A stretch of DNA of 64,000 nt from the NCBI GenBank assembly GCA_026398875.1, contig JAPLSB010000017.1, forward strand, positions 1 through 64,000. Direction: 5' to 3'. Below, piece after piece: positions 14,957 to 46,655 of the stretch (the first letter of the stretch is position 1; every line of letters begins with the position of its first letter). The notes under the pieces were generated by a model. The model worked only from the letters and a program-made list of their open reading frames with translations, was not told the DNA's origin and did not search any database. The DNA is from Gammaproteobacteria bacterium (GTDB taxonomy: Bacteria; Pseudomonadota; Gammaproteobacteria; Nevskiales; Nevskiaceae). Position numbers and translations under genes: made by a program.

Positions 14957-17900
14957 TCACTCGCGCAATGCAGGCAACAAGCCGAAGCGCTGCAGGAACA
15001 CAGCCGACTCGTCGCGAATCTGATTGTTTCTGAGCGCCAGATCATGGCTCAGCCCGGTCTGGCTGCGGAACTCACAGACCTTGCCCATCACGATCAGCGC
15101 CGAGCAGAAGTCCACGGCGGGTACAGCCCCGACGACGTTGTCCTGATCACCGTGGAAGATGATCGTCGGCGGAAATGCCGCGTCGAGATTGCGCCGTGGC
15201 GACAGCGCGTTCGCCTGCGGCCCAAACCGGAACGACGACAAGTACTGGATGCTCTGCGGATCCGTCGTGGTGTCGACGACACCAGCATTCGAAATCAGCG
15301 CCGCCGGACGCACGCCCGGGTCATCCTCGGCGCGCGCCGTGATCGGCGTTTCGGACAACGAAGCAAATGCCGCGGCTCCGCCACCCGCCGAAATGCCGGA
15401 TACGGCAATCCGTGAAACATCGATTCCCAGCTCTTCGGCATGACTGGCAACCCAGCGCAGCGCGGCGCGAGCATCGTCGATCGTCTGTGTGGCGTAGCCA
15501 CCGAAGCGTTCGTTGACACGGTAATCGGGCGCGATGCCCACCATCCCGTGCGTCTTCGACCAGTAGCGCGCGTCGAAAACCGACTTCTCTGTCGTCCCGC
15601 TAACAAAGCCGCCGCCGAACCAGTGGACGAGGGCTGATCGCCGATCGGTCGGTTTCCAACCGGCCGGCCGACAGACGAACAGCCGCATCGGCACCGGTGA
15701 CAGTTCGCGGTAGACGTGGCTCGTGCAGTCGGTGTGACTCGCGGGCGTGCTGGCCACCGGGTCCTTGGTGGTGGTCACTGTCATCGTCGAGCTGCGGTTT
15801 CCGATCGTCAGCGTGGCGCTGGTGGTCGTGGCGAACGATGCAGACGCCAGCAAGCGCACGACAACCTTGTCGCCACGCACGACCTGCCCTGACTCGGTGG
15901 AAAACGGTCCGTCATTGATGCTGTAGCTGCCACCGCTGATCGAGATCGCCGAAGGCGTCGACAGATCGAGCACGGTAATCGGCTCCGACAGCTGCGTGCT
16001 GCCTGGCACCACGGCGCCGCCGCGGAACATCGACGCATTGCTCAGCGTGAATGCCTGCAGGCGATCCGGTTGCTGCTCGGTGCGAATCGTCCACTCGCTA
16101 CGCTCGCCACCGACCGTCACGACCAGCTTGACCGCGCTGTTGAATGAAGCACTGCTCTGGCCACGCAACACGACCGTATCGCCGCCGCGCACGGTCGTAG
16201 CAGCCGCACTGAAAGCCCCGCCGTTGATGCTGAAGCTGCCCCCGGCAATCGAGATACGAGTGTCTGCATTGATGCCGCGAACGACCATGGGCGCGCTGTC
16301 GACGACGGTGCTGCGCCTCACCGTGACGTCCGGAAATCTCAGGAAATCGGGCACGGTGTCGATCGGCGCGTCGGTGACCACGCGGAACGCAGCCGAAACG
16401 CCACCGACCGACAAGGTGGCGAGCCGGACATCGCCGCGGTTCGGACCGGCTGGCACCAGCACGCGCACGATGTCGCCCTGACTGACTGGGCCGTCGAGAT
16501 CGAGAAATGGACCACCATTGACGCTGTAGCGGCCGCCGCTGACGCTAGCCGTGATCGGGACCTCGATTCCCGACACGGCCACCGGCTCGCTTACCGTCGC
16601 AAGGCCGGGGAACGCCTGGGTCTGCTCTCTGAACGACAGTGGCTCGGGCGTGATGTCGGCGCGCCGCGTGCTGACGGAAAACGAGGCCTCGACCGAACCG
16701 ACGGTCAGGCTTGCTGAGACTGTTGTGGCGAAGCTAGGCGATGCCGCCACCCGGATCTCGACCGAGTCGCCGGCAGTCACTGTTCCGTCGTCGACAGTGA
16801 ATGCACCCCCATTGATGCGATAGCTGCCGCCCGCGACGCTGATCGGCAGCGCGGTCTCGAAACCGCCGACCGCTACTGCAGCGCTGATCACCGAGGCCAA
16901 AGGATCAGCGTCGGTCACCGGTGCGAAGGCAATCGGGTCCGGTACGAGATCCGGACTGCGCGTGGTCACTTCGTATACCGACGACACGGTGCCGATCGTC
17001 AATATCGCCCGAGTCGTGGTTTCGAAGTCGCTGGACGCCAGCACCTCGACGCTGACCATGTCGCCCGGCAGCACTTCGCCCGGCAAATCGGATGCGGCAC
17101 CACCGTTGATCCGATAGCGACCACCGGATACCGAGATCGGCGTCGCCTTGTCGATGCCGGTGACCGCGACCATCGCGCTGCTGCTGACGCTGCCTGGCTC
17201 GGCATTTGAAACAGGCTCGAAGACCAGGGCCGCAGGCTCGGCCTCGGCCATCGTCGGCAACCCCACCGTGGTGACCGCGAATTCCGCCGCCACGTCGTCA
17301 ACCGTCAGGATCGCGCTGCGGCGACCACCCTGCTCGGCAGCCGAGTAGAGCGCCAGCACGACAACATCGCCATTGGTGACCTCGCCGGCCTCGTCCGTGA
17401 AGTCGCCACCGTTGACCTGGTAGCGCCCGCCGACAATGGCGATTGGCACGACGATATTGATGCCCGAGATCGTTACCGAGCTGCTGAGAACCAGCGTTGC
17501 CGGCTCGGCGTCGAGCACGGCATCGAAAATCAGCGGATCGGGCGTCCCGTCATCGGTGACTTCGCGTGTCGTCACGGCAAACACGCCGGCCACGCCACCG
17601 ACTGACAGCGTTGCCGATCGGCTCTCGCCAAACGTGAACGATGACAGCACCTGGACGGTGACCCGCGCATTCGGCGATACGCGACCCGGCAGATCGGTGA
17701 ATGGCCCCCCATTGATGCTGTAGAAACCGCCGACGATATCGATCGCTGTCTCAGCATCGAAGCCGGACAAGCGCACCGCGTTGCTGTGCACGGCCTTGCC
17801 CAGCGGCGCTTTTTCGACAGACTTGAACGCAAACGCATCGGGCGTCGTGTCGGCCGCAGCGGTCGTGACGACGAAATCTGCGGACACGCCGCCAACCGTC

Positions 17901-19519
17901 AGGCGTGCCGTGCTGGGCTGCGCTGGCAGTGCCGACGACCGCACGCGTACCACGACGAGCGAACCTGCTGACACCTGACCGGGGATGTCGCGGAAGTCTC
18001 CGCCGTCGATGCTGTAGGCACCGCCGCTGACCGAAACCGTCGCAGGCGCATCGATGCCCTGAACTCGAATCGGTGTGCTGTCGACCTGGGTATCCGTCGC
18101 GACAGCTTCCTGAGCCGCAAAGCTGAAGACACCAGGCGTCGTGTCCGCCGCGCGTGTGGTCACCGCATAAGCCGCTTCGACCGAATCGATCCGCAATACC
18201 GCGCGGGTGGTCACCTCGAACGATGTTGACGCGGTCTGCCGTACGCGGACGCGCTGCCCGGCCGCGACCTTGCCGGGCGCGGCGGTGTACGCGCCGTCGT
18301 CAAGGCTGTAACTGCCGCCGTCGATGGAGATGTCGGCGAGTGCTGTCATGCCAGTGACGATGACGGCTTCACTGGTCTGCTCGCTGCCCGGCTCGACATT
18401 GCTTGCAGCGACGAAACCGAACTGATCAGGCGTGGTGTCCGGTGGCGCGTCATCGTTGATGATGGTCGCGACACCGCGAGCCTTGCCAAGCAGTGCGTTC
18501 GAAGGCGTGTTGAGGTCGACGAAAAACGTTTCGTCGGGCTCGTGGGTGAGATCGCCATTGACGGTGAACGACTGCGTCTTGCTGACCGATCCCGGTTCGA
18601 AGATCACGGTGCCCGTGCGCCGCACATAGTCGCTGCCGGCGAGCGCCGTGCCGTCTGCCATCGCCAGTTTTACCGATACCTGACGAGACGACGACGATGA
18701 CAGTCGCAGCGTGAACCGCGCGCTGGTCGACCCGCTGGCACCTTCGATGACCTGAATGTCATCGATGCTGACCGTCGGTGTCGGCTCCGCCGATGTGGTC
18801 ACCCGGTACGTTCCGCTGACGCCGCCGATCGTCAAAACCGTATCCGCGCTCGCTCCCGCAGCCGCAGGAGAGGTCTGCCGGACCCGCACTGTCTGACCGG
18901 CCGTCACCGAACCGGCCGCCGTCGTGAACGGGCTGCTTCCAACACTGTAGGCGCCACCGGTCACGGTGACCGGGCTGGGCGCGTTGATGCCCGTCACCGT
19001 CACGCTGTTGCTGGTCTGCTCGGTACTCGGCACGGCAGCACCGACCGCTTGAAACGAAAACGGGTCGGGCCGCGTATCGGTCTCCGCTATCGTCACCGTG
19101 GCACGGGTTCTGGCCAACGCAACACCGGAAGGACTGCTGAGGTTGACGAAGAAGCTTTCCGTTGCTTCGCTCACCGCATCGCTGTTGACCGTGAACGACT
19201 GCGTCTTGCTGGTCTCGCCAGGCGCGAACGTCACCGTGCCGTTGCGCGCGACGTAATCGCTGCCCGCCGTCGCCGTGCTGTTCGCCGTCGCGAAACGAGT
19301 CGTGACCGTGGTCGTCGACGGCGCGGAGAGCGTGAATGACAAGCGCGCCGACACGGTGCCTGTGACCGGCTCGACGACACTGGCATCGTTGACGCTCAAT
19401 GTCGGCAAGCTCTGAGAAACGCCGATCGAAGGCAGGGCCGCGGCCATGACCAGCAAAACGCGCGATGCAACTCGAAAGACGTCAGGCCTGTGATGCGTTG
19501 AAAGCGCTGCAGTGGGCAT
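14957..19519 (-). CDS. Giant secreted SINGG-repeat / Calx-beta protein with C-terminal esterase (paralogue C)
   Basis: I chose the ATG at 19519 (MPTAALSTHH), which places the hydrophobic stretch VLLVMAAALPSIGVSQS as a signal peptide; the frame extends 28 codons further. The product is about 1520 residues. Order: Calx-beta, repeat 1, Calx-beta, then nine more repeats of about 85-100 residues with the core GG-x-Y-S-I-N-G-G, then an alpha/beta hydrolase from about residue 1262. The hydrolase has an HGGG-like oxyanion motif HWFGGGF, the nucleophile elbow SGISAGGG, Asp in FHGDQD and His in TGLSHDL. Four Cys in the domain could form disulfides outside the cytoplasm. The fold resembles secreted carboxyl-ester hydrolases; substrate unknown. 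Confidence 0.8.
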   Translation of the reverse strand: MPTAALSTHHRPDVFRVASRVLLVMAAALPSIGVSQSLPTLSVNDASVVEPVTGTVSARLSFTLSAPSTTTVTTRFATANSTATAGSDYVARNGTVTFAPGETSKTQSFTVNSDAVSEATESFFVNLSSPSGVALARTRATVTIAETDTRPDPFSFQAVGAAVPSTEQTSNSVTVTGINAPSPVTVTGGAYSVGSSPFTTAAGSVTAGQTVRVRQTSPAAAGASADTVLTIGGVSGTYRVTTSAEPTPTVSIDDIQVIEGASGSTSARFTLRLSSSSSRQVSVKLAMADGTALAGSDYVRRTGTVIFEPGSVSKTQSFTVNGDLTHEPDETFFVDLNTPSNALLGKARGVATIINDDAPPDTTPDQFGFVAASNVEPGSEQTSEAVIVTGMTALADISIDGGSYSLDDGAYTAAPGKVAAGQRVRVRQTASTSFEVTTRAVLRIDSVEAAYAVTTRAADTTPGVFSFAAQEAVATDTQVDSTPIRVQGIDAPATVSVSGGAYSIDGGDFRDIPGQVSAGSLVVVRVRSSALPAQPSTARLTVGGVSADFVVTTAAADTTPDAFAFKSVEKAPLGKAVHSNAVRLSGFDAETAIDIVGGFYSINGGPFTDLPGRVSPNARVTVQVLSSFTFGESRSATLSVGGVAGVFAVTTREVTDDGTPDPLIFDAVLDAEPATLVLSSSVTISGINIVVPIAIVGGRYQVNGGDFTDEAGEVTNGDVVVLALYSAAEQGGRRSAILTVDDVAAEFAVTTVGLPTMAEAEPAALVFEPVSNAEPGSVSSSAMVAVTGIDKATPISVSGGRYRINGGAASDLPGEVLPGDMVSVEVLASSDFETTTRAILTIGTVSSVYEVTTRSPDLVPDPIAFAPVTDADPLASVISAAVAVGGFETALPISVAGGSYRINGGAFTVDDGTVTAGDSVEIRVAASPSFATTVSASLTVGSVEASFSVSTRRADITPEPLSFREQTQAFPGLATVSEPVAVSGIEVPITASVSGGRYSVNGGPFLDLDGPVSQGDIVRVLVPAGPNRGDVRLATLSVGGVSAAFRVVTDAPIDTVPDFLRFPDVTVRRSTVVDSAPMVVRGINADTRISIAGGSFSINGGAFSAAATTVRGGDTVVLRGQSSASFNSAVKLVVTVGGERSEWTIRTEQQPDRLQAFTLSNASMFRGGAVVPGSTQLSEPITVLDLSTPSAISISGGSYSINDGPFSTESGQVVRGDKVVVRLLASASFATTTSATLTIGNRSSTMTVTTTKDPVASTPASHTDCTSHVYRELSPVPMRLFVCRPAGWKPTDRRSALVHWFGGGFVSGTTEKSVFDARYWSKTHGMVGIAPDYRVNERFGGYATQTIDDARAALRWVASHAEELGIDVSRIAVSGISAGGGAAAFASLSETPITARAEDDPGVRPAALISNAGVVDTTTDPQSIQYLSSFRFGPQANALSPRRNLDAAFPPTIIFHGDQDNVVGAVPAVDFCSALIVMGKVCEFRSQTGLSHDLALRNNQIRDESAVFLQRFGLLPALRE

Positions 19520-19979
19520 TGCGATGGATGGAAAAGATTTCGGGAATTGGGCGGGGATTGGCAACGAGGCCTGCCCCTTGGCGGCCGATACGTCCGAACG
19601 CATGCACGGATGCGCGAACCCGGCCCCGACTCAATGCCGATTCACCAGAAATTCCAAAAAATCATTTCTTATCAACGACAAAACGCATTTTAAGAAATGT
19701 CAACTACGCCACATTCGGACCCGACAAAACGCAGCCGGGCACGTCCGGCGCTGACCGCCGGACGGCCAGATGCAGCGAACGTGCTGCGCTTGCGACGATC
19801 CCGCCCTCTCGGGGCGCGCCCGAGCGAATCGGCGAGGCCGGAACGTTTTCGAATGTCCGTCATGCGATCTCGCCGGCGCGGCGGAGGCATCGTCATCCGC
19901 CGAACAAAACAACCCATGTCGGGCGCCTCAGGGCACGATGATTGCGTGCCTCGGCTCCAACCTTTTCAGAGCCACCGCC
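19520..19979. promoter_or_regulatory. Divergent promoter region between repeat-esterase C and the TonB receptor
   Basis: This 460-base stretch has no convincing gene. Its centre (about 19640-19710) is markedly AT-rich for this genome, as expected for promoters. It contains a 9-base inverted repeat, CATTTCTTA at 19663-19671 and TAAGAAATG at 19691-19699, separated by 19 bases, a possible operator for the divergent genes. Confidence 0.4.
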
Positions 19980-22415
19980 ATGCCGCTTCCGCTTACCGGT
20001 TACGCCCGTCGCCCGTCGTTGCGCCCGATCCCGCTGGCCATTGCAGTGGGCCTGTTCCTGTCGCCGCAAGCTGCGCTGCGCGCCGACGAGGCCACGCCCG
20101 CCACACCGCCTGCGGCCGAGCCAACCGAGGCGGTCGCGCCGGAGGGTGAGGCGACCAAATTGCAGGAAGTGATCGTCACCGCCACGCGACGCAAGGAAAG
20201 CGTGCAGAAGGTGCCGATCAACATCTTTTCGCTGACCGGCGAGCAGTTGAAGGCACAGGGGCTGACCGACCTGTCCGACTACACCAAGCAGGTGCCGGGC
20301 CTGTTCCTGGTTGATCAGGGCGGCCGCGGCGCGAACCTGATCACCGTGCGCGGCCTGAACGTCACCTCGCTGGCGGCCAGCGAAGCGGTTGGCAACGGCA
20401 CCGGCGGCGTGGTGTCGACCTATATCGGTGACATTCCGCTGTACCTGGATCTCAAGCTGCTCGACATCGATCGCGTCGAAACCCTGCTCGGACCACAGGG
20501 CACGCTGTACGGTGCCGGCACGCTGGGCGGCGCGATCCGCTATCTGCCGAACCGGCCGGACCCGAAGCAGGCGACGCTGTCGGTCAGCCAGAACCTGTAC
20601 GGCATGAGCCACAGCGACGGCATCGGCTCGGAAAGCACGGCGGTGATCAACGTGCCGGTGGCCGACAATGCGGCGATTCGCGGCTCGCTCGGCTTCTTCC
20701 ACGGGCCGGGCTTCATCGACTACCCGTTCGTGCTGCGCCAGCCCGGCGTCAGCGATCCGGAGCCGGATTTCAATGATCCGGCAGCCGTTGACGCGAATCT
20801 GAAGCGCAACAAGGACGCCGATTCCGAGAACACGCTGGCCGGCCGCATCGGCGGCCTTTACGAATTCAGCGACGTGCTGACCGCCAACCTGACCTACTTC
20901 TACCAGCGGCAGGCGGTCGGCGCGCGCACCGTCAACAGCCAGACGGCGTTCGGTACCGGCCGTTACGAATCCGGCCTGCGTTACGACGAGCCGAACAAGC
21001 GCCGCAACCAGTTGCTGAGCCTGGAACTGACCGGCGATCTCGGCTTCGCGACCTTGACCTCCGCGACCGGCCTGTCGCGCTACGACGAGCGCGGCCAGCG
21101 CGACCAGACCGACCTGCTGCTGTCGTTCGAATACGGCTACGAAGACTTCCCGGCGTTCTCGGCGTTCACGCTCGAAGAAGGCAAGCAGGAACGCCTGAGC
21201 CAGGAAATCCGTCTGGTGTCGACCAGTGCGGGGCCGTTCAACTGGATCGGCGGTCTGTTCTACAACACGGCGAAATCGAACTTCACCAGCAGCGAGTTCG
21301 TGCCGGGCTTCCCGGAATTCGCTGGCGTCGACCGCCCGGACAACCTCGAATACTTCTCGACCGACGACACCCGCTTCACCGAGCGCGCGGTGTTCGGCGA
21401 GGTCGGCTACCGGCTGACGCCGGAATGGCAGGTCACGGCCGGCGGCCGGTATTTCCAGTTCCGGCAGCTGACCAACAGCGGTTTCGCACTGCCGTTGATC
21501 GACGGCTCGGCACCGGACGAAGTCGCCGTGACGCTGCAAGCCAATGGCGTCAAGGACGCGGCCTTCATCTACAAGTTCAACACCTCGTACCAGATCAAGC
21601 CGAGCATCCTCAGCTACGTCACGGTCAGCCAGGGCTATCGCAGCGGTGGCGTCAACTCGGTGCCGCCATGTCTCGATCCGCTGCCCGAAGGTCAAAACGT
21701 CTGCGCGCTGCCGGATGAAGTGCTGATCAAACCGGACAAGACGCTGAACTACGAACTGGGGCTGAAGACCGCGTGGTTCGGCGGCCGTCTGACCGTCAAC
21801 GGCGACGTCTATTACATCGACTGGAAGGACGTGCAGGTCGGCGGCCGTACCGAAAACGGCGAAGTGCCGATCACCGTCAACGGCGCCCGCGCAGCCAGCC
21901 AGGGCTTCGAACTTGCCATGCTCGGCAAGCTCGACAAGCACTGGTCGATCGCCGCCAATTACAGCTACAACGACGCCCGCCTGACGCGCGATGCCCCGAA
22001 CATCCTGGTCAACGAAGCGTCGCAGAACGGCGACCGCCTGCCCGGCTCGCCGCCGAATCAGGGCAGCCTGCGCGTGGCCTACGCGGATCGTCTCGCCAAC
22101 GGCTGGCGCATCGAGGCCGGCTACGGCATCAACGCCATCGATGGCGTGCTGACCCGCGTCGGCGGCCGCGACAATGGCGAGCGCCTCGGCGGCTACACGC
22201 TGCATCGCGCCGATCTGGCAATCACCGATGGCCACTGGCGCGTGCGCCTGTACGGCAACAACCTGTTCGACAAGTACGCCGAAACCGGTGTGCGCGCATC
22301 GAAGGTCGATGTCGGCGTGATCGGCCCGAACGATTTCACGCTGCGCCGCTACTACAAGGACGTGCTGCCGCCACGCATGTTCGGCGCCACCTGCAGCTAT
22401 GACTTCGACCTCTGA
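19980..22415 (+). CDS. TonB-dependent outer-membrane receptor
   Basis: About 811 residues from the ATG at 19980; an in-frame ATG at 19938, preceded by AGGG, is an alternative that adds 14 residues. A signal peptide (IPLAIAVGLFLSPQAALRA) is followed by the TonB-box-like region LQEVIVTATRRKESVQ at about residues 61-76. A plug domain follows (VRGLNVTSLAASEAVGNG, VETLLGPQGTLYGAGTLGGAIRY), then a beta-barrel ending in the aromatic C terminus CSYDFDL. It should import a ligand across the outer membrane using TonB energy. The ligand is unknown and no siderophore or cobalamin gene is nearby. A TPR-sulfotransferase gene follows 18 bases downstream, probably in the same operon. Confidence 0.9.
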   Translation: MPLPLTGYARRPSLRPIPLAIAVGLFLSPQAALRADEATPATPPAAEPTEAVAPEGEATKLQEVIVTATRRKESVQKVPINIFSLTGEQLKAQGLTDLSDYTKQVPGLFLVDQGGRGANLITVRGLNVTSLAASEAVGNGTGGVVSTYIGDIPLYLDLKLLDIDRVETLLGPQGTLYGAGTLGGAIRYLPNRPDPKQATLSVSQNLYGMSHSDGIGSESTAVINVPVADNAAIRGSLGFFHGPGFIDYPFVLRQPGVSDPEPDFNDPAAVDANLKRNKDADSENTLAGRIGGLYEFSDVLTANLTYFYQRQAVGARTVNSQTAFGTGRYESGLRYDEPNKRRNQLLSLELTGDLGFATLTSATGLSRYDERGQRDQTDLLLSFEYGYEDFPAFSAFTLEEGKQERLSQEIRLVSTSAGPFNWIGGLFYNTAKSNFTSSEFVPGFPEFAGVDRPDNLEYFSTDDTRFTERAVFGEVGYRLTPEWQVTAGGRYFQFRQLTNSGFALPLIDGSAPDEVAVTLQANGVKDAAFIYKFNTSYQIKPSILSYVTVSQGYRSGGVNSVPPCLDPLPEGQNVCALPDEVLIKPDKTLNYELGLKTAWFGGRLTVNGDVYYIDWKDVQVGGRTENGEVPITVNGARAASQGFELAMLGKLDKHWSIAANYSYNDARLTRDAPNILVNEASQNGDRLPGSPPNQGSLRVAYADRLANGWRIEAGYGINAIDGVLTRVGGRDNGERLGGYTLHRADLAITDGHWRVRLYGNNLFDKYAETGVRASKVDVGVIGPNDFTLRRYYKDVLPPRMFGATCSYDFDL

Positions 22416-22433
22416 CGCGACGGCCACTTGCTG

Positions 22434-24032
22434 ATGGCAACGAACCCGGCGGCGCTGCGCAGCGCCGCCGAACGTGCGCTCGCCGCCGGGCAGTTCGCTG
22501 ACGCGGAGCGCTGCTGCGCCGCGTGGCTCGACCAGCAACCCGGCGACCCCGATGCGCTGCGTCTGGCCGCAATTGCCGCGCTGGCGCAGGGCCGCGCGCG
22601 CGATGCCCTGTCGCGCCTCGATCACGCGCTGCAGTCCGCACCGGACCGCGGAGATCTGCTGTCGCAAAAGGCCCGCGTGATGTCGCTGGCCGGGCGCATT
22701 CCCGAGGCGCTGGCGGCGGTCGATGCCGCGCTGCGGCCTGCCGATGCGCTGACCAGACTTGACGCCGAAAGCCTCGACACACTTGGCGTCGTGCTCAGCC
22801 GTGCCCACGAACATGCGCGTGCCTGCATGCTGTTCGACGCGGCCGCCGCCCGGGCGCGGAACGTTGCCGCGATCCGCTTCAATCAGGCGTCATCGCTGAA
22901 ATTCCTTGGCCGTTTCGACGAGGCCGAAGCGGCTTACGAAGACTGCCTGAGCCGCGACCCGCAGCACTGGAAAGCCCACTCCGGCCTTGCTCATCTGCGC
23001 ACTGCGACCGCGGCCCGCAACCATCTGCCTCGGCTCGAAGCGCTGATGCCGCAGGCCGTTGGCCGCCCGCAGGCGGAGATTCATCTGCATCAGGCGCTGG
23101 CCAAGGAGCACGAGGATCTGGGGCACGCCGAACAGGCACTGCAGCACTGGCAGCAGGCCAAGCAGGCGCGGCGACGGCTGCAGCCGCATGACGCGACTGG
23201 CGAGGCGGCCTGCCGCGATGAACTGCAGCGGCTGTTCGCGTCAGGCCGTGCGGAATCGCGACCCGGCGCGGACAGTCACGAGCCGATCTTCGTCGTCGGC
23301 ATGCCGCGCAGCGGCACCACGCTGATCGACCGCATCCTGTCGAGCCATCCGGACGTGCAGTCGGCCGGCGAGCTGCAGAACATGGGGCATGTGCTGAAAC
23401 GCGCTGCCGGCACGCCGGGCCGCAGCACGCTCGATGTCGACACCTTGCGTGCCGCTTTCGCGGCGGACCCGGCGGCCGTCGGCAAGGCCTACGTCGACTC
23501 GACGCGTCCCGGCACCGGCCAGCGCCGGCACTTCGTCGACAAGATGCCGCTGAACTTCTGGTACGCCGGCCACATTCACCGGGCGCTGCCGGCGGCGCGC
23601 ATCGTCTGCCTGCTGCGCCATCCGCTGGATACCGTGCTGTCGAACTTCCGGCAGCTGTTCTCGATCGACAACCCCTACTACAGCTACGCCGACACCCTCG
23701 CCGACTGCGCTCGCTACGTCGCCGGCTTCCATCGGCTGGTCGCGCTGTGGCAGCAGTCGCTGGGTGACGCGTTCACGGTCGTCCGCTACGAAACGCTGAT
23801 CGCCGAACCGGAAGCGACGATGCGCGCGCTGCTTGCGCACTGCCGCCTGGAATGGGACCCGCGCTGCCTGCACTTCGAACGTAACGAGGCCCCGGTATCC
23901 ACCGCCAGCAGCGTGCAGGTCCGGCAACCGCTGAATGCGGCTTCCATTGGCCGCTGGCAGCGACACGCAGCGGCGCTCGACGAAGCGCGCGGCATCCTCG
24001 CTGCAGCCGGAGTGGATTGCAGCGCCTGCTGA
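22434..24032 (+). CDS. TPR-containing sulfotransferase family protein
   Basis: A 532-residue protein from the ATG at 22434; a TTG two codons upstream is also in frame. Residues about 5-260 are tetratricopeptide-like helical repeats (LAAGQFADAERCCAAWLDQQPGDPDALRL and similar). The C-terminal half is a sulfotransferase: the PAPS 5'-phosphosulfate loop VVGMPRSGTTLIDRI is near residue 288 and the 3'-phosphate motif CLLRHPLDTVLSNF near residue 395. Such TPR-sulfotransferases commonly sit beside TonB receptors, as here. The acceptor is unknown. No signal peptide is seen, so it probably acts in the cytoplasm. Confidence 0.85.
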   Translation: MATNPAALRSAAERALAAGQFADAERCCAAWLDQQPGDPDALRLAAIAALAQGRARDALSRLDHALQSAPDRGDLLSQKARVMSLAGRIPEALAAVDAALRPADALTRLDAESLDTLGVVLSRAHEHARACMLFDAAAARARNVAAIRFNQASSLKFLGRFDEAEAAYEDCLSRDPQHWKAHSGLAHLRTATAARNHLPRLEALMPQAVGRPQAEIHLHQALAKEHEDLGHAEQALQHWQQAKQARRRLQPHDATGEAACRDELQRLFASGRAESRPGADSHEPIFVVGMPRSGTTLIDRILSSHPDVQSAGELQNMGHVLKRAAGTPGRSTLDVDTLRAAFAADPAAVGKAYVDSTRPGTGQRRHFVDKMPLNFWYAGHIHRALPAARIVCLLRHPLDTVLSNFRQLFSIDNPYYSYADTLADCARYVAGFHRLVALWQQSLGDAFTVVRYETLIAEPEATMRALLAHCRLEWDPRCLHFERNEAPVSTASSVQVRQPLNAASIGRWQRHAAALDEARGILAAAGVDCSAC

Positions 24033-24033
24033 C

Positions 24034-24062
24034 CGGCCGCTGATCACCACGATCAGCGGCCG
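24034..24062. terminator. Bidirectional hairpin between convergent genes
   Basis: CGGCCGCTGATC-ACCAC-GATCAGCGGCCG is a perfect 12-bp stem. It begins just after the sulfotransferase stop and ends 15 bases before the stop of the opposing repeat-esterase. No T tract is present on either side. Confidence 0.5.
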
Positions 24063-24077
24063 ACCGAAGCGGCGCGA

Positions 24078-27000
24078 TTAACGCACTGCGGGCAGCAAAC
24101 CGAGGCTGGTCAGGAAGACCCTGGTTTCCTCGCGGATTGCATCGAGCGCCGTCAGGTTTTCCGACACGTCGTGTCCCATGCCTGCCTGGTTGCGGTAGTC
24201 GCAGCGGATGCCCAGCCGGATCAGCGACGAGCAGAAATTCACGCTTGGCGTCGGCGCCACCGTGGTGTCTCGATCGCCATGGAACATCAATACAGGCGGA
24301 TAGCGGGCATCGAGATTGACGCTCGGCGACAGCACAGGCCCGAGACTGTCGAACAGCTCGGCAGCCTCGAAGCGCTGGATGTGCGACTCGGTGGTGATGT
24401 CCGGCACTCCGGCGCGCGTGACGATGGCCGCCGGGCGCTGCAACGGGTTGTCGTCGGCCGAGCCGGTCACCGGCGCGTCGCGAAGCCCGGCAAAGAACGC
24501 CACGCCGCCGCCAGCCGACGAACCCGACAGCGCGATCCGCGCCGGATCGATACCGAGCTCGGCAGCGTTGGCCTGCACCCATCGCAGTGCTGCACGACCG
24601 TCATCCGCCGATGCATAGGCAAAGGTGCCGAAGCGCTCGTTGACGCGGTAATCCGGCGCGACGCCGACCATGCCGTGCGTGTTTGCCCAGTAACGCGCCT
24701 CGCCGACGGCATTGTCGGTAGTGCCGAACACGAAGCCGCCGCCGAACCAGTGGATCAGCGCCGATCGGCGATCCGTCGATCGCCAGCCGGCGGGCCTGCA
24801 GACGAAGACGCGCAGCGGCACTGGCTGCTGCTGCCGGAAAACGTGTGCGGTGCAGTCGGTGGCTGCGGTCGGGGTTGCGGCAACGGCGTCGATCGTCGTG
24901 GTCACCGACAGCGTCGAACTGAACGCGCCGATCGTCAGCGTGACCGCGCTGCTGGTGTCGTGGCTCGCCGATGCGAAGAACTGCACCACCACCGAATCAC
25001 CGTTGATCACCGATCCGGGTGCCGACGTGAAAGGACCGCCGTTGATGCTGTAGCTGCCGCCGCTGACGCTGATCGCACTCGGCGACGGCGAGCCCGCGAC
25101 CACGATCGGATTGGTCGTCAGCGCACGGCCGGGTGGCACGAAGCCGCCTGGATACATTTCGGCGTTGACCAGCGTGAACGGTCGCAATTGCGCGGGGTCG
25201 GCATCGGTGTGCAGCGACCACGCGGTGCTTCGACGGCCAATGTTCAAGGTCACCCGCGTTTCGGTGCCATAGCCGCTGCTGCTGGTGGCCTGAAGGGTCA
25301 CGAGATCGCCGCCCTTCACCGTCGACGCCGAACTGCGGAACGCGCCGCCATTGATGCTGTAGGTGCCGCCGACCACCGAGATCGATGTGGCCACGTTGAT
25401 GCCACGAACCTCGATGGTCTCGCTCCGCACCAGCGTATTGCGCGCCGCAACTACGTCCCGGAACTCGAAGAAGTCGGCGAAATCATCGGCCGGCGCATCG
25501 GCCGTGACGGTGTAGGTCCCGGTGATGCCGCCGAGATTCAGCGTTGCCGTGACGATGTCGCCGCGATTCGGCCCGGCAACTGCCATCACCCGGATCTGGT
25601 CGCCGTTGCTGGCCGCGCCCGGCATCGACAGGAACGGCCCGCCGTTGATGCTGTACTCGCCCGCTGTCACGGACACCGGGATCGGCGCGTTGACACCGCT
25701 GACGGTGACCGATGGGGTTACCGAGGCCAGCAACGGGAACGCAGCGGGATTGCTGATGGAACCGATCCGGGCCGGCGTGACGTCCGCACCGGTGGTGGTG
25801 ACATGGAAGACCGCACTGACGTCGCCGATCGTCACTGTGGCCGACGACGTCGTTGCGGCGGTACTGGCCGCCAGGGTGCGGACGCGCACAACATCGCCGT
25901 TGCGGACTTCTCCGGTCTGGCTGGTGAAGGCCGCTCCGCCGACGCTGTACTGGCCGTTGATGATGACGATCTTCGCCGGCGCGTCGATACCGCTGATCGT
26001 CACGCCGGCGCTGGTGCGGACGCTGCCGTTGGCGGCATCAACAACCGGCGCGAATGCGAAGGCGTTCGGTGACGTGTCGGCCGACCGCGTGGCGACCGTG
26101 AACGTCACGCGTGAAGTGCCAACCGTCAGCACCGCGTCGCGCCGTTCAGCGAACGCATCGCTCGCCACGACCTCGACCACCACGCTGTCATCGTTCGACA
26201 CGATGCCGTCAGCGGACGTGAACGCGCCGCCGTTGACGCTGTACCGTCCGCCGGCGACTGAAATCGGCGTTCCGTCCGTGATACCGCTGATCCGCGCTGG
26301 CCGACTGGTCTTCACGCTGCCGGGCTCGGCATTGAAGACCGGCCCAAGCCAGATCGGCGCAGGGACATGGTCGGCGGCTATCCGCGACGACGTCGTCACC
26401 GTGAAATCCGCCCGCTTGTCGCCAATCGTGACGGTGGCGCTGCGCGTGGCCGACGGCTGCTCGGACGCTTGCACCTCGGCCACCACGACGTCGCCGTCGA
26501 CCGCGTCTCCCGGTGCGTCGGTGAACGCGCCGCCATTGATCTGATAACGCCCGCCGCTGACCGAGATCGGTACCGCGATGTCGATTCCGGTCACGACGAT
26601 CGGCTCGCTGCTCACCACGCTGCCTGCCCAGACATCGACCACAGGCGCGAATGCGAAGGCATCGGGTGATGCGTCGGCGGTCATGCTGTGCGTGGTCACG
26701 CGGTAGGTGCCCGAGACGCCGCCGATGGTCAGCACCGCTTCGCGTGTCTCGAGGTAGCCAAACGCGGACAGCACCTGCACGACCACCGACGCGTTGTTGC
26801 TGACGCTGCCGGGTGCGTCGGTAAATGCTTGGCCATCGATGCTGTAAAAGCCGCCGACGATCGAGATCGGGCTTGCTGCAGTCAGGCCGGTGACCGTGAT
26901 CGGATCGCTGTTCTGAAGGCTGCCGGGCGCCGCTTGGGTCGTTGCAGGGAAGCTGAACGGATTGGGCGTCGTGTCGGCCGTCCTGACGGTCGTGATCCGG

Positions 27001-27659
27001 AAGCTGCTGCTGACGCCGCCGATGCTGATCGCGACATTCGTCGTGGTGCCGGCACTGGTGCTGGCGGTTCCGCGCGCGCTGACCCGCGCGTTATTGCCGA
27101 CGGTGCCAGCGGTCGACGTGAACGGTCCGCCATTGATGCTGTAGCTGCCGCCGCTGCTGACACTGATGGGCGCCGCCGCTTCGAGACCGGTGATCGTCGT
27201 CGGCTCGCTGACCTGCGTGCTCCCGGGCGCTGCTTCGCTGCGCGGCACGAAGCTGAACGCATCGGGCACGGTATCCGCCTTGCGGGTGGTCACCTTGAAT
27301 GTCGATGTCGACGCCGGCACCCCGACCCGCAGCTTGACGCTGACGGACGTCGAAAAGGCCTCGGAAGCAATGACTGCAACGCGGACGGCATCGCCGTTGC
27401 GGACCCGGCCGGATGCAGTGGTGAAACTGCCGTTGTTGATGCTGTAGGCGCCACCGGAGACGCTGATCGGCACGCTGGTATCGATGCCGGAAATCGGGCG
27501 GCTGGCGCTGATAACCGTGCTGGCGCGCTCGGCATTGTTGACCGCGGGAAACACGATCGGGTCCGGCGCGGTATCGGCCGCCCAGGCCGCTGGCAGCGCC
27601 AATCCCAGCGCAAGACAACACAGCGTGCAAAGCCGCCGAAGCGGGGTCGAGTTGGTCAT
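24078..27659 (-). CDS. Giant secreted SINGG-repeat protein with C-terminal esterase (paralogue A)
   Basis: 1193 residues. The start (MTNSTPLRRLC) follows an AGGGA ribosome site with 5-base spacing. Signal peptide: LCCLALGLALPAAWAA. Nine repeats with the core GG-x-Y-S-I-N-G-G follow, linked by VTTRxADTTPD-type spacers; there is no Calx-beta domain. The alpha/beta-hydrolase begins near residue 930: oxyanion HWFGGGF, nucleophile elbow SGSSAGGG, Asp in FHGDRD, His in GMGHDV. Repeat order matches paralogue B except that one repeat and the Calx-beta module are missing. Family knowledge suggests a carboxyl esterase on a surface or secreted stalk; substrate unknown. Confidence 0.8.
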   Translation of the reverse strand: MTNSTPLRRLCTLCCLALGLALPAAWAADTAPDPIVFPAVNNAERASTVISASRPISGIDTSVPISVSGGAYSINNGSFTTASGRVRNGDAVRVAVIASEAFSTSVSVKLRVGVPASTSTFKVTTRKADTVPDAFSFVPRSEAAPGSTQVSEPTTITGLEAAAPISVSSGGSYSINGGPFTSTAGTVGNNARVSARGTASTSAGTTTNVAISIGGVSSSFRITTVRTADTTPNPFSFPATTQAAPGSLQNSDPITVTGLTAASPISIVGGFYSIDGQAFTDAPGSVSNNASVVVQVLSAFGYLETREAVLTIGGVSGTYRVTTHSMTADASPDAFAFAPVVDVWAGSVVSSEPIVVTGIDIAVPISVSGGRYQINGGAFTDAPGDAVDGDVVVAEVQASEQPSATRSATVTIGDKRADFTVTTSSRIAADHVPAPIWLGPVFNAEPGSVKTSRPARISGITDGTPISVAGGRYSVNGGAFTSADGIVSNDDSVVVEVVASDAFAERRDAVLTVGTSRVTFTVATRSADTSPNAFAFAPVVDAANGSVRTSAGVTISGIDAPAKIVIINGQYSVGGAAFTSQTGEVRNGDVVRVRTLAASTAATTSSATVTIGDVSAVFHVTTTGADVTPARIGSISNPAAFPLLASVTPSVTVSGVNAPIPVSVTAGEYSINGGPFLSMPGAASNGDQIRVMAVAGPNRGDIVTATLNLGGITGTYTVTADAPADDFADFFEFRDVVAARNTLVRSETIEVRGINVATSISVVGGTYSINGGAFRSSASTVKGGDLVTLQATSSSGYGTETRVTLNIGRRSTAWSLHTDADPAQLRPFTLVNAEMYPGGFVPPGRALTTNPIVVAGSPSPSAISVSGGSYSINGGPFTSAPGSVINGDSVVVQFFASASHDTSSAVTLTIGAFSSTLSVTTTIDAVAATPTAATDCTAHVFRQQQPVPLRVFVCRPAGWRSTDRRSALIHWFGGGFVFGTTDNAVGEARYWANTHGMVGVAPDYRVNERFGTFAYASADDGRAALRWVQANAAELGIDPARIALSGSSAGGGVAFFAGLRDAPVTGSADDNPLQRPAAIVTRAGVPDITTESHIQRFEAAELFDSLGPVLSPSVNLDARYPPVLMFHGDRDTTVAPTPSVNFCSSLIRLGIRCDYRNQAGMGHDVSENLTALDAIREETRVFLTSLGLLPAVR

Positions 27660-27758
27660 GCGGGTCCCTGAAGTGTCGCCCTCTGATGGGACGACTGGTG
27701 CGCTTCATACCACAGGGACCCTCCAAAAACCTGTGAGGATCTTCAGCCAGACAGGTAA

Positions 27759-27784
27759 CCTGGCTTACGAGCCTGATTCTTCGA
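27759..27784 (-). promoter_or_regulatory. Conserved upstream element of paralogue A
   Basis: A 26-base segment about 100 bases upstream of the start matches the segment at 32239-32264 upstream of paralogue B at 20 of 26 positions (shared TGGCTTA and CCTGAT blocks, plus TTCGA). The distance to the start codon is almost the same (100 and 101 bases). It could be part of the promoter or an activator site. The remaining intergenic sequence to 27920 shows no gene. Confidence 0.4.
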
Positions 27785-27920
27785 CAACTTCGCCATGCGC
27801 CTGTGGCGCTGCAAATGAACGCTTGGTCACGTCCCTGCGGCAGGCCGAGCGGGGTTTGCGCGGCGGCGGCGCCGCGCGAACGCCTTCGGCAGCGCGCTCA
27901 TCTGCGCATACCCCCTGCTT

Positions 27921-30900
27921 TCACGGCAGCGCCGGCAGCAGCCCGAGGCTGCTCAGGAAGGCCCGCGTCTCCTCGCGAATCGCATCCAGGCCGTTGGCGC
28001 CGGCGGACAGGTCGTGACCCAGGCCGGCCTGATTGCGATATTCGCAGCGGATGCCACGACGGAGCAGCGACGAGCAGAAATGCACGCTTGGCGTCGGGGC
28101 GACCGTGGTGTCCCGATCGCCGTGGAACAGCAGCACCGGCGGATAGGCATCGTCGAGATTGACGCTCGGCGAAATCACCGGCCCCAGATCCGCGAAACGA
28201 TCAGCGCTCTTGTAGGCCTGGATGTGAGACTCGGTGGTGATGTCCGGCACGCCTGCGCGCGTGACGATGGCAGCCGGGCGCCGCAAAGGATTGTCGGCAG
28301 GCGAACCGGTGACTGGTGCATCGCGCAGCGCTGCGAAAAAAGCCACGCCTCCGCCTGCAGATGAACCGGAAAGCGCAATCCTCGCCGGATCGATGCCGAG
28401 GTCGGCCGCATGTTCCTGAACCCACCGAAGTGCCGCGCGGCCGTCGTCGGCCGTCAGGTAGGCATAGGTTCCGAAACGGTCGTTGACCCGATAGTCCGGC
28501 GCGATACCGACCATGCCGTGGTTCCTCGCCCAGTACCGCGCCTCACCGACCGAGCTGTCGGTGTTGCCGAAAATGAAGCCACCGCCGAACCAGTGCAGCA
28601 GCGCGGATCGCCGATCGGTCGCTCGCCAGTCGGCTGGCTTGCAGACGAAGAGGCGCAACGGCACCGGTGCCTGTGGCCGGAACACATGCGAACTGCAGTC
28701 GGTGGCCGATGCCGGCGTTGCAGCGACGGGATCAATCGTCGTGGTCACCGACAAGGACGAGCTGAACGTGCCGATCCTGAGCGTCACCGACTTGGCCGTG
28801 TCATGGCTCGTCGCTGCGGTGAATCGCACGACCACCGAATCACCGCTGACCACCGACCCATTCGCGGCAGTGAACGGCCCGCCATTGATGCTGTAGCTGC
28901 CGCCGCTGATGCTGATCGGCGTCGGCGATGACGGGTTGTAGACCGTGATCGGAACGGTGGTCTGCACGCTGCCCGGGACCACCGCACCGCCGGCGAACAT
29001 CGAAGCGTTGACCAGCGTGAAGGCCTGCAGGGTGGTCGGATCGCTCTCGGTACGAAGCGACCACACCGTGCTCCGGCTGCCGACATTCAGCGTGACCCGT
29101 ACCAGCCCGTCATGGCTGCTGGCACTGCTGGCTTGCAAGGTCACCCGGTCGCCGCCGCGCACGGTGGACGCAGCGGTGCCGAATGCGCCGTCGTTGATGC
29201 TGTAGCGGCCTCCGGTGACCGAGATTGGCGTCGGCACGTTGATCCCACGCATCAGGCTGGTTTCGCTGCGAACGACGGTATTGCGCGGGCCGATGCTGTC
29301 GCGGAACTCGAAGATGTCCGGGAAATCGTCGACCGGCGCGTCCGCCGTCACCGTGAAACTGCCGGTAACTCCGCCGAGGTTCAGCGTCGCCGTGCTCACG
29401 TCGCCACGGTTGGCGCCGGGAATCACCAGCAGGCGAACCTTGTCACCGTTGCTGACCGGCCCGGGAACCGACATGAACGGTCCGCCATTGACGCTGTATT
29501 CGCCACCGACCACGGCAGCGGTGATCGGCGCGTTGATGCCGGTGACCGTCACCGGCGCGCTGACCGTGGCCAGCAACGGAAACGCGCTCGGGTTGGCGCT
29601 GAAGCCGAATGCGTCCGGCGTGACGTCGGCACTCGACGTGGTGATGTCGAAGACTGCGCTGATTCCCGAAATGGTCAGCGTGGCAGCCGTCGTCGTTGCC
29701 GGGCGGGACGACGCCGATGCGCGCACGCGAATCGACTCGCCATTGCGAATCTCACCAGCAGCACTGGTGAACGCCGCGCCGCCGATGCTGTACTGACCAT
29801 CGGTGATCGTGACCGGCACCGGAACATCGATGCCGCTGATGATCACGGCGGTACTGACGCCGATGCTGTTCGGCGCCGCGTCGACGATCGGTGCGAACGC
29901 GAAGGCGTCCGGCACCGAATCGGCCGGCCGGGTCGTGACCTGGAATGCAGCACTGGCGTTGCCGATCGTCAGCACCGCCTCGTTGCCGGTTGCAAACTCG
30001 GCGCTGGCAAGCACTTCGACGGCCACGCTGTCGCCGCTTTCCACGGTGCCGCTGCTGGCGGTGAACGCGCCACCATTGATGCTGTAGCGCCCGCCGGTCA
30101 CCGCAATCGGCGCATCGGCGCTGATGCCGGCAATCATCACCGGCTGGCTGATCTGCACGCTCGCGGGCTCGACGTTGACGATCGGCATGAACGCGAACGC
30201 GTCGGGGTCGACGTCGATCGCATCCGGGCCGGTCGTGGCGGTGAAATCGGCACTGACGCCGCCGATGACGATGGTCGCGGTACGGGTCGTGGCATCGGTG
30301 TCCGCCGTCTGTACCTCGGCGCTGACCTGGTCCCCGCTGGAGACCTCGCCCGCTTCGGCAGTAAACGCACCATCGTTGATCTGATAGCGACCACCGCTGA
30401 CGGTGATCGGGACGGCGATATTGATGCCGCTGACGGTGATCGGCTGGCTGCGCTGGATGCTGCCGACAGGGGCATCGACCACCGGCTGGAACTGGAACGC
30501 GTCCGGCGTGCCGTCGGCGGTGAAGGCCTGGGTGGTGACGCTGTAGGTCCCGGAGACGCCGCCGATATCGAGGGTCGCGACACGGGTTTCCGAGTAGCCG
30601 TAAGCCGCCAGCACCTGCACCACCACCATTGCGCCATTGCCGACGCGGCCGGGGCGGTCGGTAAAGGCGCCGCCGTCGACGCTGTAGTAGCCACCAGCGA
30701 TCGCCACCGGGCTGGAGGCGGTCAGGCCGGTCACGGTGATCGGATCGCTGGTTTGCAGACTGCCAAGCGGCGCATCGATCGTCGGCGCGAAGCCGAATGC
30801 GTTCGGCGTGGTGTCGGGTGCAGGATCGTCGTTGACGATCGTCGCCACGCCTTGCGCCTTCTCGATGCTCACACCGACCGGCGTGCTCAGATTGATAACG

Positions 30901-32138
30901 AAGGTTTCATCCGGCTCGAAGTCGGGATCGCCATTGACCGTGAACGGCTGGGTCTTGCTGGTTTCGCCCGGGGCGAACGTCGTCGTGCCGGTCCTGGTCA
31001 CATAGTCGCTGCCGGCGCTGGCCGTGCCCGCTGCGGTTGCAAACCGGACCGACACCGTCTGGCTGGCGGCTGCCGACAGTCGGAAGGTGAAACGCGCGAC
31101 CGAGGTTCCGCTGTCGCCCTCGACCACGCGCACATCGTCGATGCTGACGCGGAGCACCCCGCCCGCCTCGGTGGTAACGGCAAAGTCGCCGCGGACACCG
31201 CCGATGGTCAAAGTTGCTGTTGTCGTCGTGCCCGGCTCGCTGGCGGCCGTCTGCTGCACCCTCACCATCTGCCCGGCCATGACCGTCCCGGCGGTGGTCA
31301 CGAAAGCACTGCCATCGATGCTGTAGCGGCCACCGGCCACCGAAATCGGCGCCCCGGTATTGATGCCGCTGACCGTGATCGGCGCGCTGGTCTGCACGCT
31401 GCCGGGCGCGGCGTTGCTCGTCGGCGTGAAGCTGAACGGATCCGGCGTCGTGTCTGCGGTCCTCACGGTCGTGATCCGGAAGACCCCGTTGCTGCCGCCG
31501 ATCTTGACGGTGACGCTGACCGACTTGTTGGCGCTGGCGCTCGCAGTGCCGCGGGCCCGTACCCGGGCATTGTTGGCAACAGTCGCGGCGGCCGACGTGA
31601 ACGGACCGCCATCGATGCTGTAGCTGCCGCCACTGCTGACGCTGATGGCGGCGGGCGCTTCGAGACCGGTGATGGTCGTCGGCTCGCTGGTCTGGGTGCT
31701 TCCCAGCGCTGCTTCGCTGCGGGGGGTGAAGCTGAACCCGTCTGGCACCGTATCTGCCTTGCGCGTCGTCACCTTGAACGATGACGTCACCGACGGCGAG
31801 CCGACGCGAACCTTGGCACTGACCGCCGTGGAGAACGCTTCGGAGGACACCACGCTGGCACGCACGATGTCGCCGTTGACGACGCGCCCCGATGCGGTCG
31901 TGAACGGGCCGCCATTGATGCTGTAACTGCCGTCGCTGACGCTGATCGGAACGCTGGCATCGATACCGGTGATCGTCTGGCCGGCGCTGATCACCGTGCT
32001 GGCCCGCTCGGCGTTGGTCACGGCGGGAAACACCAGCGGATCGGGGGTGGTGTCCGCAGCTTTCGCGAACGGCGCGACGAGCACCATGACGGTGCAGGAA
32101 ATAGCCCGAAGCGGTCTCACCAACAACGCGTGCGCCAT
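27921..32138 (-). CDS. Giant secreted SINGG-repeat / Calx-beta protein with C-terminal esterase (paralogue B)
   Basis: About 1405 residues from the ATG at 32138 (MAHALLVRPLR), which has an AGGGA ribosome site 5-6 bases upstream; the in-frame ATG 54 bases earlier was rejected. The signal peptide ends near VAPFAKA. Order: three repeats, one Calx-beta domain (GSDYVTRTGTTTFAPGET, EPDETF), seven more repeats, then an alpha/beta hydrolase from about residue 1146. The hydrolase has HWFGGGF, elbow SGSSAGGG, Asp in FHGDRD and His in GLGHDL. Closest relative in the window is paralogue A, which shares the leader sequence. Conserved Cys pairs in the hydrolase fit an extracytoplasmic enzyme. Substrate unknown. 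Confidence 0.8.
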   Translation of the reverse strand: MAHALLVRPLRAISCTVMVLVAPFAKAADTTPDPLVFPAVTNAERASTVISAGQTITGIDASVPISVSDGSYSINGGPFTTASGRVVNGDIVRASVVSSEAFSTAVSAKVRVGSPSVTSSFKVTTRKADTVPDGFSFTPRSEAALGSTQTSEPTTITGLEAPAAISVSSGGSYSIDGGPFTSAAATVANNARVRARGTASASANKSVSVTVKIGGSNGVFRITTVRTADTTPDPFSFTPTSNAAPGSVQTSAPITVSGINTGAPISVAGGRYSIDGSAFVTTAGTVMAGQMVRVQQTAASEPGTTTTATLTIGGVRGDFAVTTEAGGVLRVSIDDVRVVEGDSGTSVARFTFRLSAAASQTVSVRFATAAGTASAGSDYVTRTGTTTFAPGETSKTQPFTVNGDPDFEPDETFVINLSTPVGVSIEKAQGVATIVNDDPAPDTTPNAFGFAPTIDAPLGSLQTSDPITVTGLTASSPVAIAGGYYSVDGGAFTDRPGRVGNGAMVVVQVLAAYGYSETRVATLDIGGVSGTYSVTTQAFTADGTPDAFQFQPVVDAPVGSIQRSQPITVSGINIAVPITVSGGRYQINDGAFTAEAGEVSSGDQVSAEVQTADTDATTRTATIVIGGVSADFTATTGPDAIDVDPDAFAFMPIVNVEPASVQISQPVMIAGISADAPIAVTGGRYSINGGAFTASSGTVESGDSVAVEVLASAEFATGNEAVLTIGNASAAFQVTTRPADSVPDAFAFAPIVDAAPNSIGVSTAVIISGIDVPVPVTITDGQYSIGGAAFTSAAGEIRNGESIRVRASASSRPATTTAATLTISGISAVFDITTSSADVTPDAFGFSANPSAFPLLATVSAPVTVTGINAPITAAVVGGEYSVNGGPFMSVPGPVSNGDKVRLLVIPGANRGDVSTATLNLGGVTGSFTVTADAPVDDFPDIFEFRDSIGPRNTVVRSETSLMRGINVPTPISVTGGRYSINDGAFGTAASTVRGGDRVTLQASSASSHDGLVRVTLNVGSRSTVWSLRTESDPTTLQAFTLVNASMFAGGAVVPGSVQTTVPITVYNPSSPTPISISGGSYSINGGPFTAANGSVVSGDSVVVRFTAATSHDTAKSVTLRIGTFSSSLSVTTTIDPVAATPASATDCSSHVFRPQAPVPLRLFVCKPADWRATDRRSALLHWFGGGFIFGNTDSSVGEARYWARNHGMVGIAPDYRVNDRFGTYAYLTADDGRAALRWVQEHAADLGIDPARIALSGSSAGGGVAFFAALRDAPVTGSPADNPLRRPAAIVTRAGVPDITTESHIQAYKSADRFADLGPVISPSVNLDDAYPPVLLFHGDRDTTVAPTPSVHFCSSLLRRGIRCEYRNQAGLGHDLSAGANGLDAIREETRAFLSSLGLLPALP

Positions 32139-32495
32139 GCCAATCCCTGATGTGTCACCTTCTGTCGAGGTGACTTCGCCGCGGATTAACACAAAAGCGT
32201 CGCCATAAATCCTCGCGGATTTCTAACGAAATGATCGCCTTGGCTTAGGGTCCTGATATTTCGAAAATTATTCCGGTTCGATCAGCGGCCGGAGATGACG
32301 CTTTTGTCACTTTGCCGGCTACCCATCCGGAAATCGGCGCAGCGGAGCGTGACGGCGAAGCGCCGCAGCTCATCGCCGGACCGCGATCGGAACCCTCCAA
32401 GGGACGGCAAGGCGCATCGATCCGACGCGTCCCGCGTTCCATCCTGATGCCTGAATGCGGTCAGGCGGACGGCAGCGGCGCCGCCTCGCTCCGCG
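32139..32495. promoter_or_regulatory. Intergenic region upstream of paralogue B
   Basis: About 357 bases with no supported gene, lying between two leftward genes. It holds the promoter of paralogue B. The AT-rich part at 32185-32275 includes a short inverted repeat AAATCC-TCGC-GGATTT (32207-32222) and the element at 32239-32264. The remainder, toward the bestrophin stop, shows nothing recognisable. Confidence 0.4.
32239..32264 (-). promoter_or_regulatory. Conserved upstream element of paralogue B
   Basis: Counterpart of the segment at 27759-27784 (20 of 26 bases identical), located about 101 bases upstream of the start codon. Confidence 0.4.
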
Positions 32496-46510: not shown

Positions 46511-46655
46511 CAAGGTCTTCTCCCGAGACAGGTTCGAAATGGCAATGCGACGGACGGTAGTCAGCGCAGATGACGATCGGGAGAAAAAATGTCGATGCTT
46601 CGTGCATGACAGATGAACAAGATTTGACAGCACCGACCATCACGGAGGGCCAGCG

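Follow-up and report, generated by a model that had tools for sequence, protein, structure and literature searches.

TtEst2 of Thermogutta terrifontis is an exported esterase that prefers para-nitrophenyl (pNP) acetate and whose minimal cap leaves an open site or groove (PMC4655241). BD-FAE (PF20434; PDB 6TKX) is a carbohydrate esterase with an open active-site furrow, 29 homologues of which are found in alginate-targeting loci of Bacteroidetes, where they make up one clade (PMC8165983). O-acetylated alginate is a bacterial product, its acetylation protects it from most lyases, and the multi-module protein PsmE of Pseudomonas syringae deacetylates alginate before a second enzyme acts (PMC4444821). 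Here we describe a cluster of three large genes, E1 to E3, in each of which a hydrolase domain related to TtEst2 and BD-FAE ends a long protein built from repeats with the core GG-x-Y-S-I-N-G-G (SINGG repeats), with or without Calx-beta domains. The cluster lies in the first 64,000 nucleotides (the window, that is, the whole stretch of DNA analysed) of contig JAPLSB010000017.1 of assembly GCA_026398875.1, from a freshwater Nevskia-like bacterium of the Nevskiaceae with a genome of 4.15 Mb in 24 contigs.

The likeness to TtEst2 (PDB 5AO9) covers a full-length hydrolase alignment, the order of the catalytic triad, the GGG-aromatic oxyanion motif, export (predicted here), and, at the level of the aligned sequences, the lack of a visible N-terminal cap. 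TtEst2 is, however, a single domain of 286 aa, whereas here the domain ends a SINGG/Calx-beta protein of 530-2500 aa and contains two invariant cysteines. BD-FAE is matched above the Pfam cut-off but more weakly than TtEst2, and the proteins described here are multidomain and have no GH10 context. PsmE is an analogue in the way that it works, and no homology is claimed: its deacetylase module is predicted to be of the SGNH type, its other modules are of the R, M and RTX types, and its partner is an epimerase within the same chain. This chimaeric deacetylase-epimerase is the nearest analogue that we found for a deacetylase acting together with a lyase. Two further groups of proteins share the arm rather than the head. 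SINGG surface proteins with GlyGly-CTERM-like tails have the same ~95-aa repeat and are also present in the genome under study, but they carry other or no catalytic domains and an anchored tail that is missing from the esterases. PL7 (PF08787) domains on SINGG arms in Nevskia metagenome-assembled genomes (MAGs) follow the same arm design in the same genomes, but their catalytic head is a polysaccharide lyase.

The enzyme domain is therefore of a known kind and the repeat is widespread yet unnamed, while the combination of the two and its expansion into multiple paralogues are new to the literature searched. No paper was found in that literature for the motif YSINGG, and the titles and abstracts searched for Nevskia with esterase or alginate held nothing relevant. 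Within these limits the remark of an initial annotation of the window, made from the sequence alone, that no described system has this architecture continues to hold. Overall, catalysis is strongly supported and the substrate moderately so. Proteins of the E1-E3 type are very probably exported serine esterases, judging from their sequences, and it is rather likely that they are carbohydrate O-acetyl-esterases; that they partner PL7 on an alginate-like polymer we put at a shade under an even chance. The full reading that we favour, in which E1-E3, a fourth gene and two more paralogues O-deacetylate an acetylated acidic polysaccharide (an alginate-like polyuronate) in partnership with PL7 lyases, is evenly balanced between being right and wrong.

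The C-terminal hydrolase

E1 (14957..19603; 1548 aa), E2 (24078..27659; 1193 aa) and E3 (27921..32192; 1423 aa) lie on the minus strand, as do all of their domains given below. Each starts with a signal-type N-terminus (signal peptides in E2 and E3), as judged by eye from the sequence. The initial annotation had recognized these as three large genes, and the open reading frames (ORFs) bear this out; its lengths of 1520 aa for E1 and 1405 aa for E3, and its end at 32138, correspond to internal ATG starts (at 19519 and 32138, respectively).

The alpha/beta hydrolase that had been proposed at each C-terminus is found there. The domains match Pfam BD-FAE (E 6e-19, 4e-18 and 6e-16 for E1-E3; 59-69 bits against a cut-off of 26.8) and Abhydrolase_3 (PF07859; 49-55 bits against a cut-off of 25), and all three contain the motifs HWFGGGF, G-x-S-A-G-G-G, HGD-x-D and G/S-HD. 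A profile of the hydrolase aligns with TtEst2 over positions 12-266 of 270 (E 1e-45), and E2 alone finds the same structure with E 1.7e-32 and the triad aligned, far better than the match to BD-FAE or to any HSL-type esterase in the PDB. In E1 the domain spans 14960..15763, with codons at 15389-15391 (Ser1405), 15140-15142 (Asp1488) and 15044-15046 (His1520). The corresponding domain of E2 is at 24081..24890 (Ser1048, 24516-24518; Asp1131, 24267-24269; His1163, 24171-24173) and that of E3 at 27924..28733 (Ser1278, 28359-28361; Asp1361, 28110-28112; His, 28014-28016), the histidines of E2 and E3 being placed by alignment. The alignment of E2 with TtEst2, which compares sequences only, has no N-terminal cap and an insertion shorter than that of TtEst2.

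Across 21 relatives there is no variation at the triad Ser, Asp and His or at the first two Gly of the oxyanion motif. A pair of cysteines, at positions 320 and 330 of the E2 alignment, is likewise invariant in the 21 sequences and could form a disulphide. Across eight orthologue pairs the ratio of nonsynonymous to synonymous substitution rates (dN/dS) is 0.03-0.17 for the hydrolase and 0.12-0.28 for the repeats, and is lower for the hydrolase within each pair, so that both parts are under purifying selection. The homology to TtEst2 together with the invariant residues makes serine-esterase activity well supported, and the esterase assignment of the initial annotation now has strong, if sequence-derived, backing; we infer in addition a putative preference for acetyl esters. 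It is highly improbable that the proteins are instead adhesins of the cell surface, with a hydrolase fold that serves chiefly for binding and only secondarily for catalysis. Their long, Ser/Thr-rich and cysteine-free arms do resemble adhesin stalks in general form, but the triad is invariant, the hydrolase is under strong purifying selection, and no membrane anchor or sorting signal follows it.

Association with PL7 alginate lyases

The suggested role in alginate deacetylation is drawn from linkage to PL7. The gene directly downstream of one paralogue elsewhere in the genome (on contig C11) encodes a PL7 alginate lyase (PF08787, E 3e-35), and a PL7 gene adjoins an esterase gene on the same strand in four genomes (this one and relatives G005, G011 and G010); in a further relative, G002, the two are ~5.5 kb apart. 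The adjoining PL7 genes mostly lack SINGG arms, while PL7 domains on SINGG arms are present in G014 and G015 (2-10 repeats) and at locus L030 of the genome under study (one repeat). Within the genus, PL7 is present in 7/7 esterase-positive genomes, at 3-6 copies each, versus 0/11 negative genomes (Fisher 3e-5), and within the family in 8/8 positive versus 5/50 negative genomes (Fisher 7e-7). In a tree of LepA, two near relatives (G008 and G016) lack both esterase and PL7.

Several observations weigh against the partnership. The LepA tree offers only 2 independent positive/negative pairs, both concordant but too few for significance, and this phylogenetic non-independence means that the Fisher values overstate the case. 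The five further PL7-bearing genomes of the family have no esterase. No PL7 gene lies within the 64-kb window, the E1-E3 locus, between DegP/bestrophin and LepA, is without recognized carbohydrate-active enzymes (CAZymes), and no oligoalginate-lyase-type Hepar_II_III gene was found in this genome.

With so few independent events behind the PL7 link, the association could be a coincidence of lineage, and the proteins could be exported esterases that scavenge small esters and lipids, dissolved or in surface films, with the arm as no more than a generic spacer. In keeping with this, TtEst2 has been characterized on small pNP esters only, and the SINGG repeat is a generic module of many unrelated bacterial surface proteins. 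We nevertheless consider this explanation unlikely, though the least unlikely of the alternatives, since linkage of esterase and PL7 genes recurs in four genomes, SINGG-PL7 fusions exist as well, and six long-armed paralogues would be an unusual route to small esters.

Should the esterases and lyases indeed act together, the polymer might be the bacterium's own exopolysaccharide, subject to slime remodelling or release, rather than food. The E1-E3 locus borders rpoE-rseA-rseB-degP, a stress- and exopolysaccharide-regulating operon in Pseudomonas, although the order rpoE-rseAB-degP-lepA is ordinary in Gammaproteobacteria. PF05426-type lyase genes were found in the genome, and bacteria do make O-acetylated alginate (PMC4444821). 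On the other hand, the AlgE-type export porin (PF13372) was not found in this genome, though it is common in relatives. Export of the bacterium's own alginate was accordingly rejected as an explanation, and the distribution of PF13372 indicates that it is no marker. Slime turnover is in our judgement improbable. Separately, two loci of G000 (C22:207525-211327 and C16:271795-277325) have weak PL7-like domains close to very long open frames (of 1462 and 1137 aa) that contain alginate-lyase-like stretches of the PF05426 type, and are possibly a second polyuronate system.

BD-FAE is the best Pfam match of E1-E3 and is a bifunctional feruloyl/acetyl-xylan esterase (PMC8165983), which raises the alternative of feruloyl or acetyl-xylan esterases for plant cell-wall material. 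GH10 xylanase, the one xylanase family searched, is present in 0/8 esterase-positive genomes, and a xylan substrate is left without support. The xylan clade of BD-FAE homologues is, moreover, separate from the alginate clade (PMC8165983), and by far the closest solved relative is TtEst2, not BD-FAE. We regard a role in plant cell-wall breakdown as very improbable. Deacetylation of an alginate-like polyuronate alongside PL7 is the reading that we carry forward.

The SINGG repeat and its arms

A hidden Markov model (HMM) of the repeat, 95 aa long, was seeded from one copy and then iterated. It matches 10, 9 and 10 copies in E1, E2 and E3, within the 9-10 noted initially. All repeats of the window score at least 68.8 bits (median 99), while the highest score among 600 shuffled versions of these proteins is 6.1 bits, which places the repeats far beyond chance. 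Calx-beta domains (PF03160; Pfam cut-off 27) number 2, 0 and 1, likewise in line with the zero to two first described: two stretches in E1 (107 bits, E 7e-31), one in E3 (52 bits, E 8e-14), and none in E2 in the Pfam search.

Read from the N-terminus, E1 has a first Calx-beta at 19076..19321 (Pfam, residues 95-176), SINGG repeat 1 at 18794..19078 (from the repeat HMM), a second Calx-beta between repeats 1 and 2 at 18440..18793 (Pfam, approximate bounds), repeats 2-9 in 95 aa units at 16079..18439, and a last, juxta-catalytic repeat at 15770..16048. E2 has an array of 9 repeats (24897..27575), and in E3 repeats 1-3 (31170..32054) are followed by the Calx-beta (30861..31136; Pfam, residues 353-444) and repeats 4-10 (28740..30815). 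The last repeat is a distinct subtype, kept with the hydrolase in all six paralogues of the genome: in 30/30 comparisons with another paralogue it is most similar to that protein's own last repeat, which indicates that last repeat and hydrolase have moved together as a single unit. Elsewhere in the arm, the number of repeats and the Calx-beta content differ between proteins: a sister-genus copy (G032, 532 aa) has 2 repeats in all, and the longest protein (G014, 2506 aa) has 15. Cysteine is absent from the arms of the six paralogues, in which Ser and Thr make up 22-28% of residues, and the repeat/Calx-beta arrays plausibly form extended arms. The adhesive role that the initial annotation gave to these arms found no support in the analysis. 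A division of the arms into charge classes (acidic long, basic short) was dropped: the isoelectric point of the short arm ranges from 5.4 to 9.1 between orthologues, so that charge class is no stable feature.

The repeat has no convincing match in Pfam or NCBIfam (the best Pfam match is to 2/29 members, E 0.003), and a PDB search returned no solved relative. Against PHROGs, 21/29 window repeats weakly match the phage short-tail-fibre family phrog_4924 (best E 1.6e-4), hinting at module sharing with phages. The repeat is common among the surface proteins of bacteria from many phyla, where a GlyGly-CTERM-like or other tail frequently accompanies it, but in the loci fetched from outside the Nevskiaceae it was never found together with a TtEst2-type hydrolase. 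In the genome under study, the protease-like example is a subtilase-like protein (L024, 3816-8000, minus strand) in which several SINGG repeats are combined with a Calx-beta-like stretch and a tail of the GlyGly-CTERM-like kind. At L078 (5674-6488), repeat fragments in two overlapping frames upstream of a 10-repeat SINGG-PL7 gene suggest a frameshift or a MAG assembly error.

A proposed mode of action

In the mechanism that we propose, the proteins would be exported by the Sec pathway and probably then by type II secretion. The genome has genes for the type II secretion protein GspD and for a rhombosortase, while E1-E3 end with the hydrolase and have no C-terminal sorting tail or membrane anchor after it. 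The extracellular location proposed in the initial annotation is supported, at the level of prediction, by the signal-type N-termini, the GspD gene, and the occurrence of the SINGG repeat in a surface protein with a GlyGly-CTERM-like tail in this rhombosortase-bearing genome. The SINGG/Calx-beta array would serve as an extended spacer that holds the enzyme within the polymer gel or close to the cell, and it may itself bind glycans or Ca2+. The C-terminal hydrolase would bind an acetyl ester, with attack by the Ser-Asp-His triad and the GGG motif as oxyanion hole, as homology and the invariant residues suggest. Deacetylated stretches might finally be open to the PL7 lyases of the same genomes, some of them on SINGG arms, a step to which co-occurrence and adjacency point.

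Tentatively, and with more doubt than confidence, we extend this picture to the repeat as a whole. The SINGG repeat may be an unrecognized extracellular domain family and the shared arm kit of Nevskiaceae, with acetyl-esterase and PL7 heads on interchangeable arms that, secreted but kept near the cell, together deacetylate and cleave acetylated polyuronates in fresh water. A lineage with several dedicated esterases of this arm-borne kind, linked to PL7 lyases, would offer an explanation, open to experiment, of how bacteria in the environment break into acetylated slime, and would supply deacetylases for work on biofilm matrices. The repeat, lacking a Pfam entry, merits a family model and a structure.

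Paralogues, distribution and genomic context

The fourth gene with the same modules, as first described, is present as an N-terminal piece at 1..672 (minus strand). A signal-type N-terminus and one Calx-beta (63 bits, E 2e-17) are followed by the beginning of a SINGG repeat, at which point the contig ends. The final 141 bases of this piece recur without mismatch as the opening 141 bases of contig C6, and beyond them C6 encodes 1496 aa with this architecture, so that the gene likely continues there, to ~1670 aa in all; the join of the two contigs is likely rather than proven, because repeats could also yield a 141-base overlap. The genome has six repeat-plus-hydrolase genes, namely E1-E3 and those on C6 (the fourth gene), C11 and C15. 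The number of paralogues, the wide spread of the repeat as a generic module and the co-occurrence of esterase and PL7 had all escaped the first description.

Among 58 genomes of the family, repeat and hydrolase occur together in 7/18 genomes of the same genus and in one of a sister genus. In 369 genomes drawn from the class, the sole further match is a stand-alone hydrolase (G245, L166), with no lyase-like neighbour within its 3.6 kb. Within the genomes searched, the architecture is found only in Nevskiaceae. Besides Nevskia, the named relatives with the full architecture are gammaproteobacterial MAGs that are unplaced and MAGs labelled Lysobacteraceae. In a tree built from 33 hydrolase domains, the orthologues fall into four groups: A (C15), B (the window locus), C (C11) and D (C6, hence the fourth gene). 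The same five species retain all four groups, and G014 shows separate expansions. L028 (1729-3825, minus strand) encodes two small exported esterases in tandem that belong to this broad family but lack repeats.

The window locus is syntenic in relatives, in the order DegP, bestrophin, one to three esterases and LepA. A TonB-dependent receptor and a TPR-sulfotransferase (19770-24032, plus strand) sit between E1 and E2; this pair is missing there in G002, G005 and G011. Since the order DegP-bestrophin-esterase-LepA persists in relatives that do not have the pair, it was rejected as a core part. A minus-strand ORF at 19893-22814 is antisense to the TonB-dependent receptor and was rejected as a spurious cluster member. 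Elsewhere in the window, 7601-9235 (minus strand) encodes a repeat protein of the Delta-60 type that has a stretch rich in TTGG and carries a GlyGly-CTERM-like tail. A 94-base tRNA-Gly(gcc) called by ARAGORN at 44995-45088 (minus strand) falls within an ORF at 44138-46633 (5'-nucleotidase-like, with cadherin/Ig domains) and is probably a false call, or an overlap.

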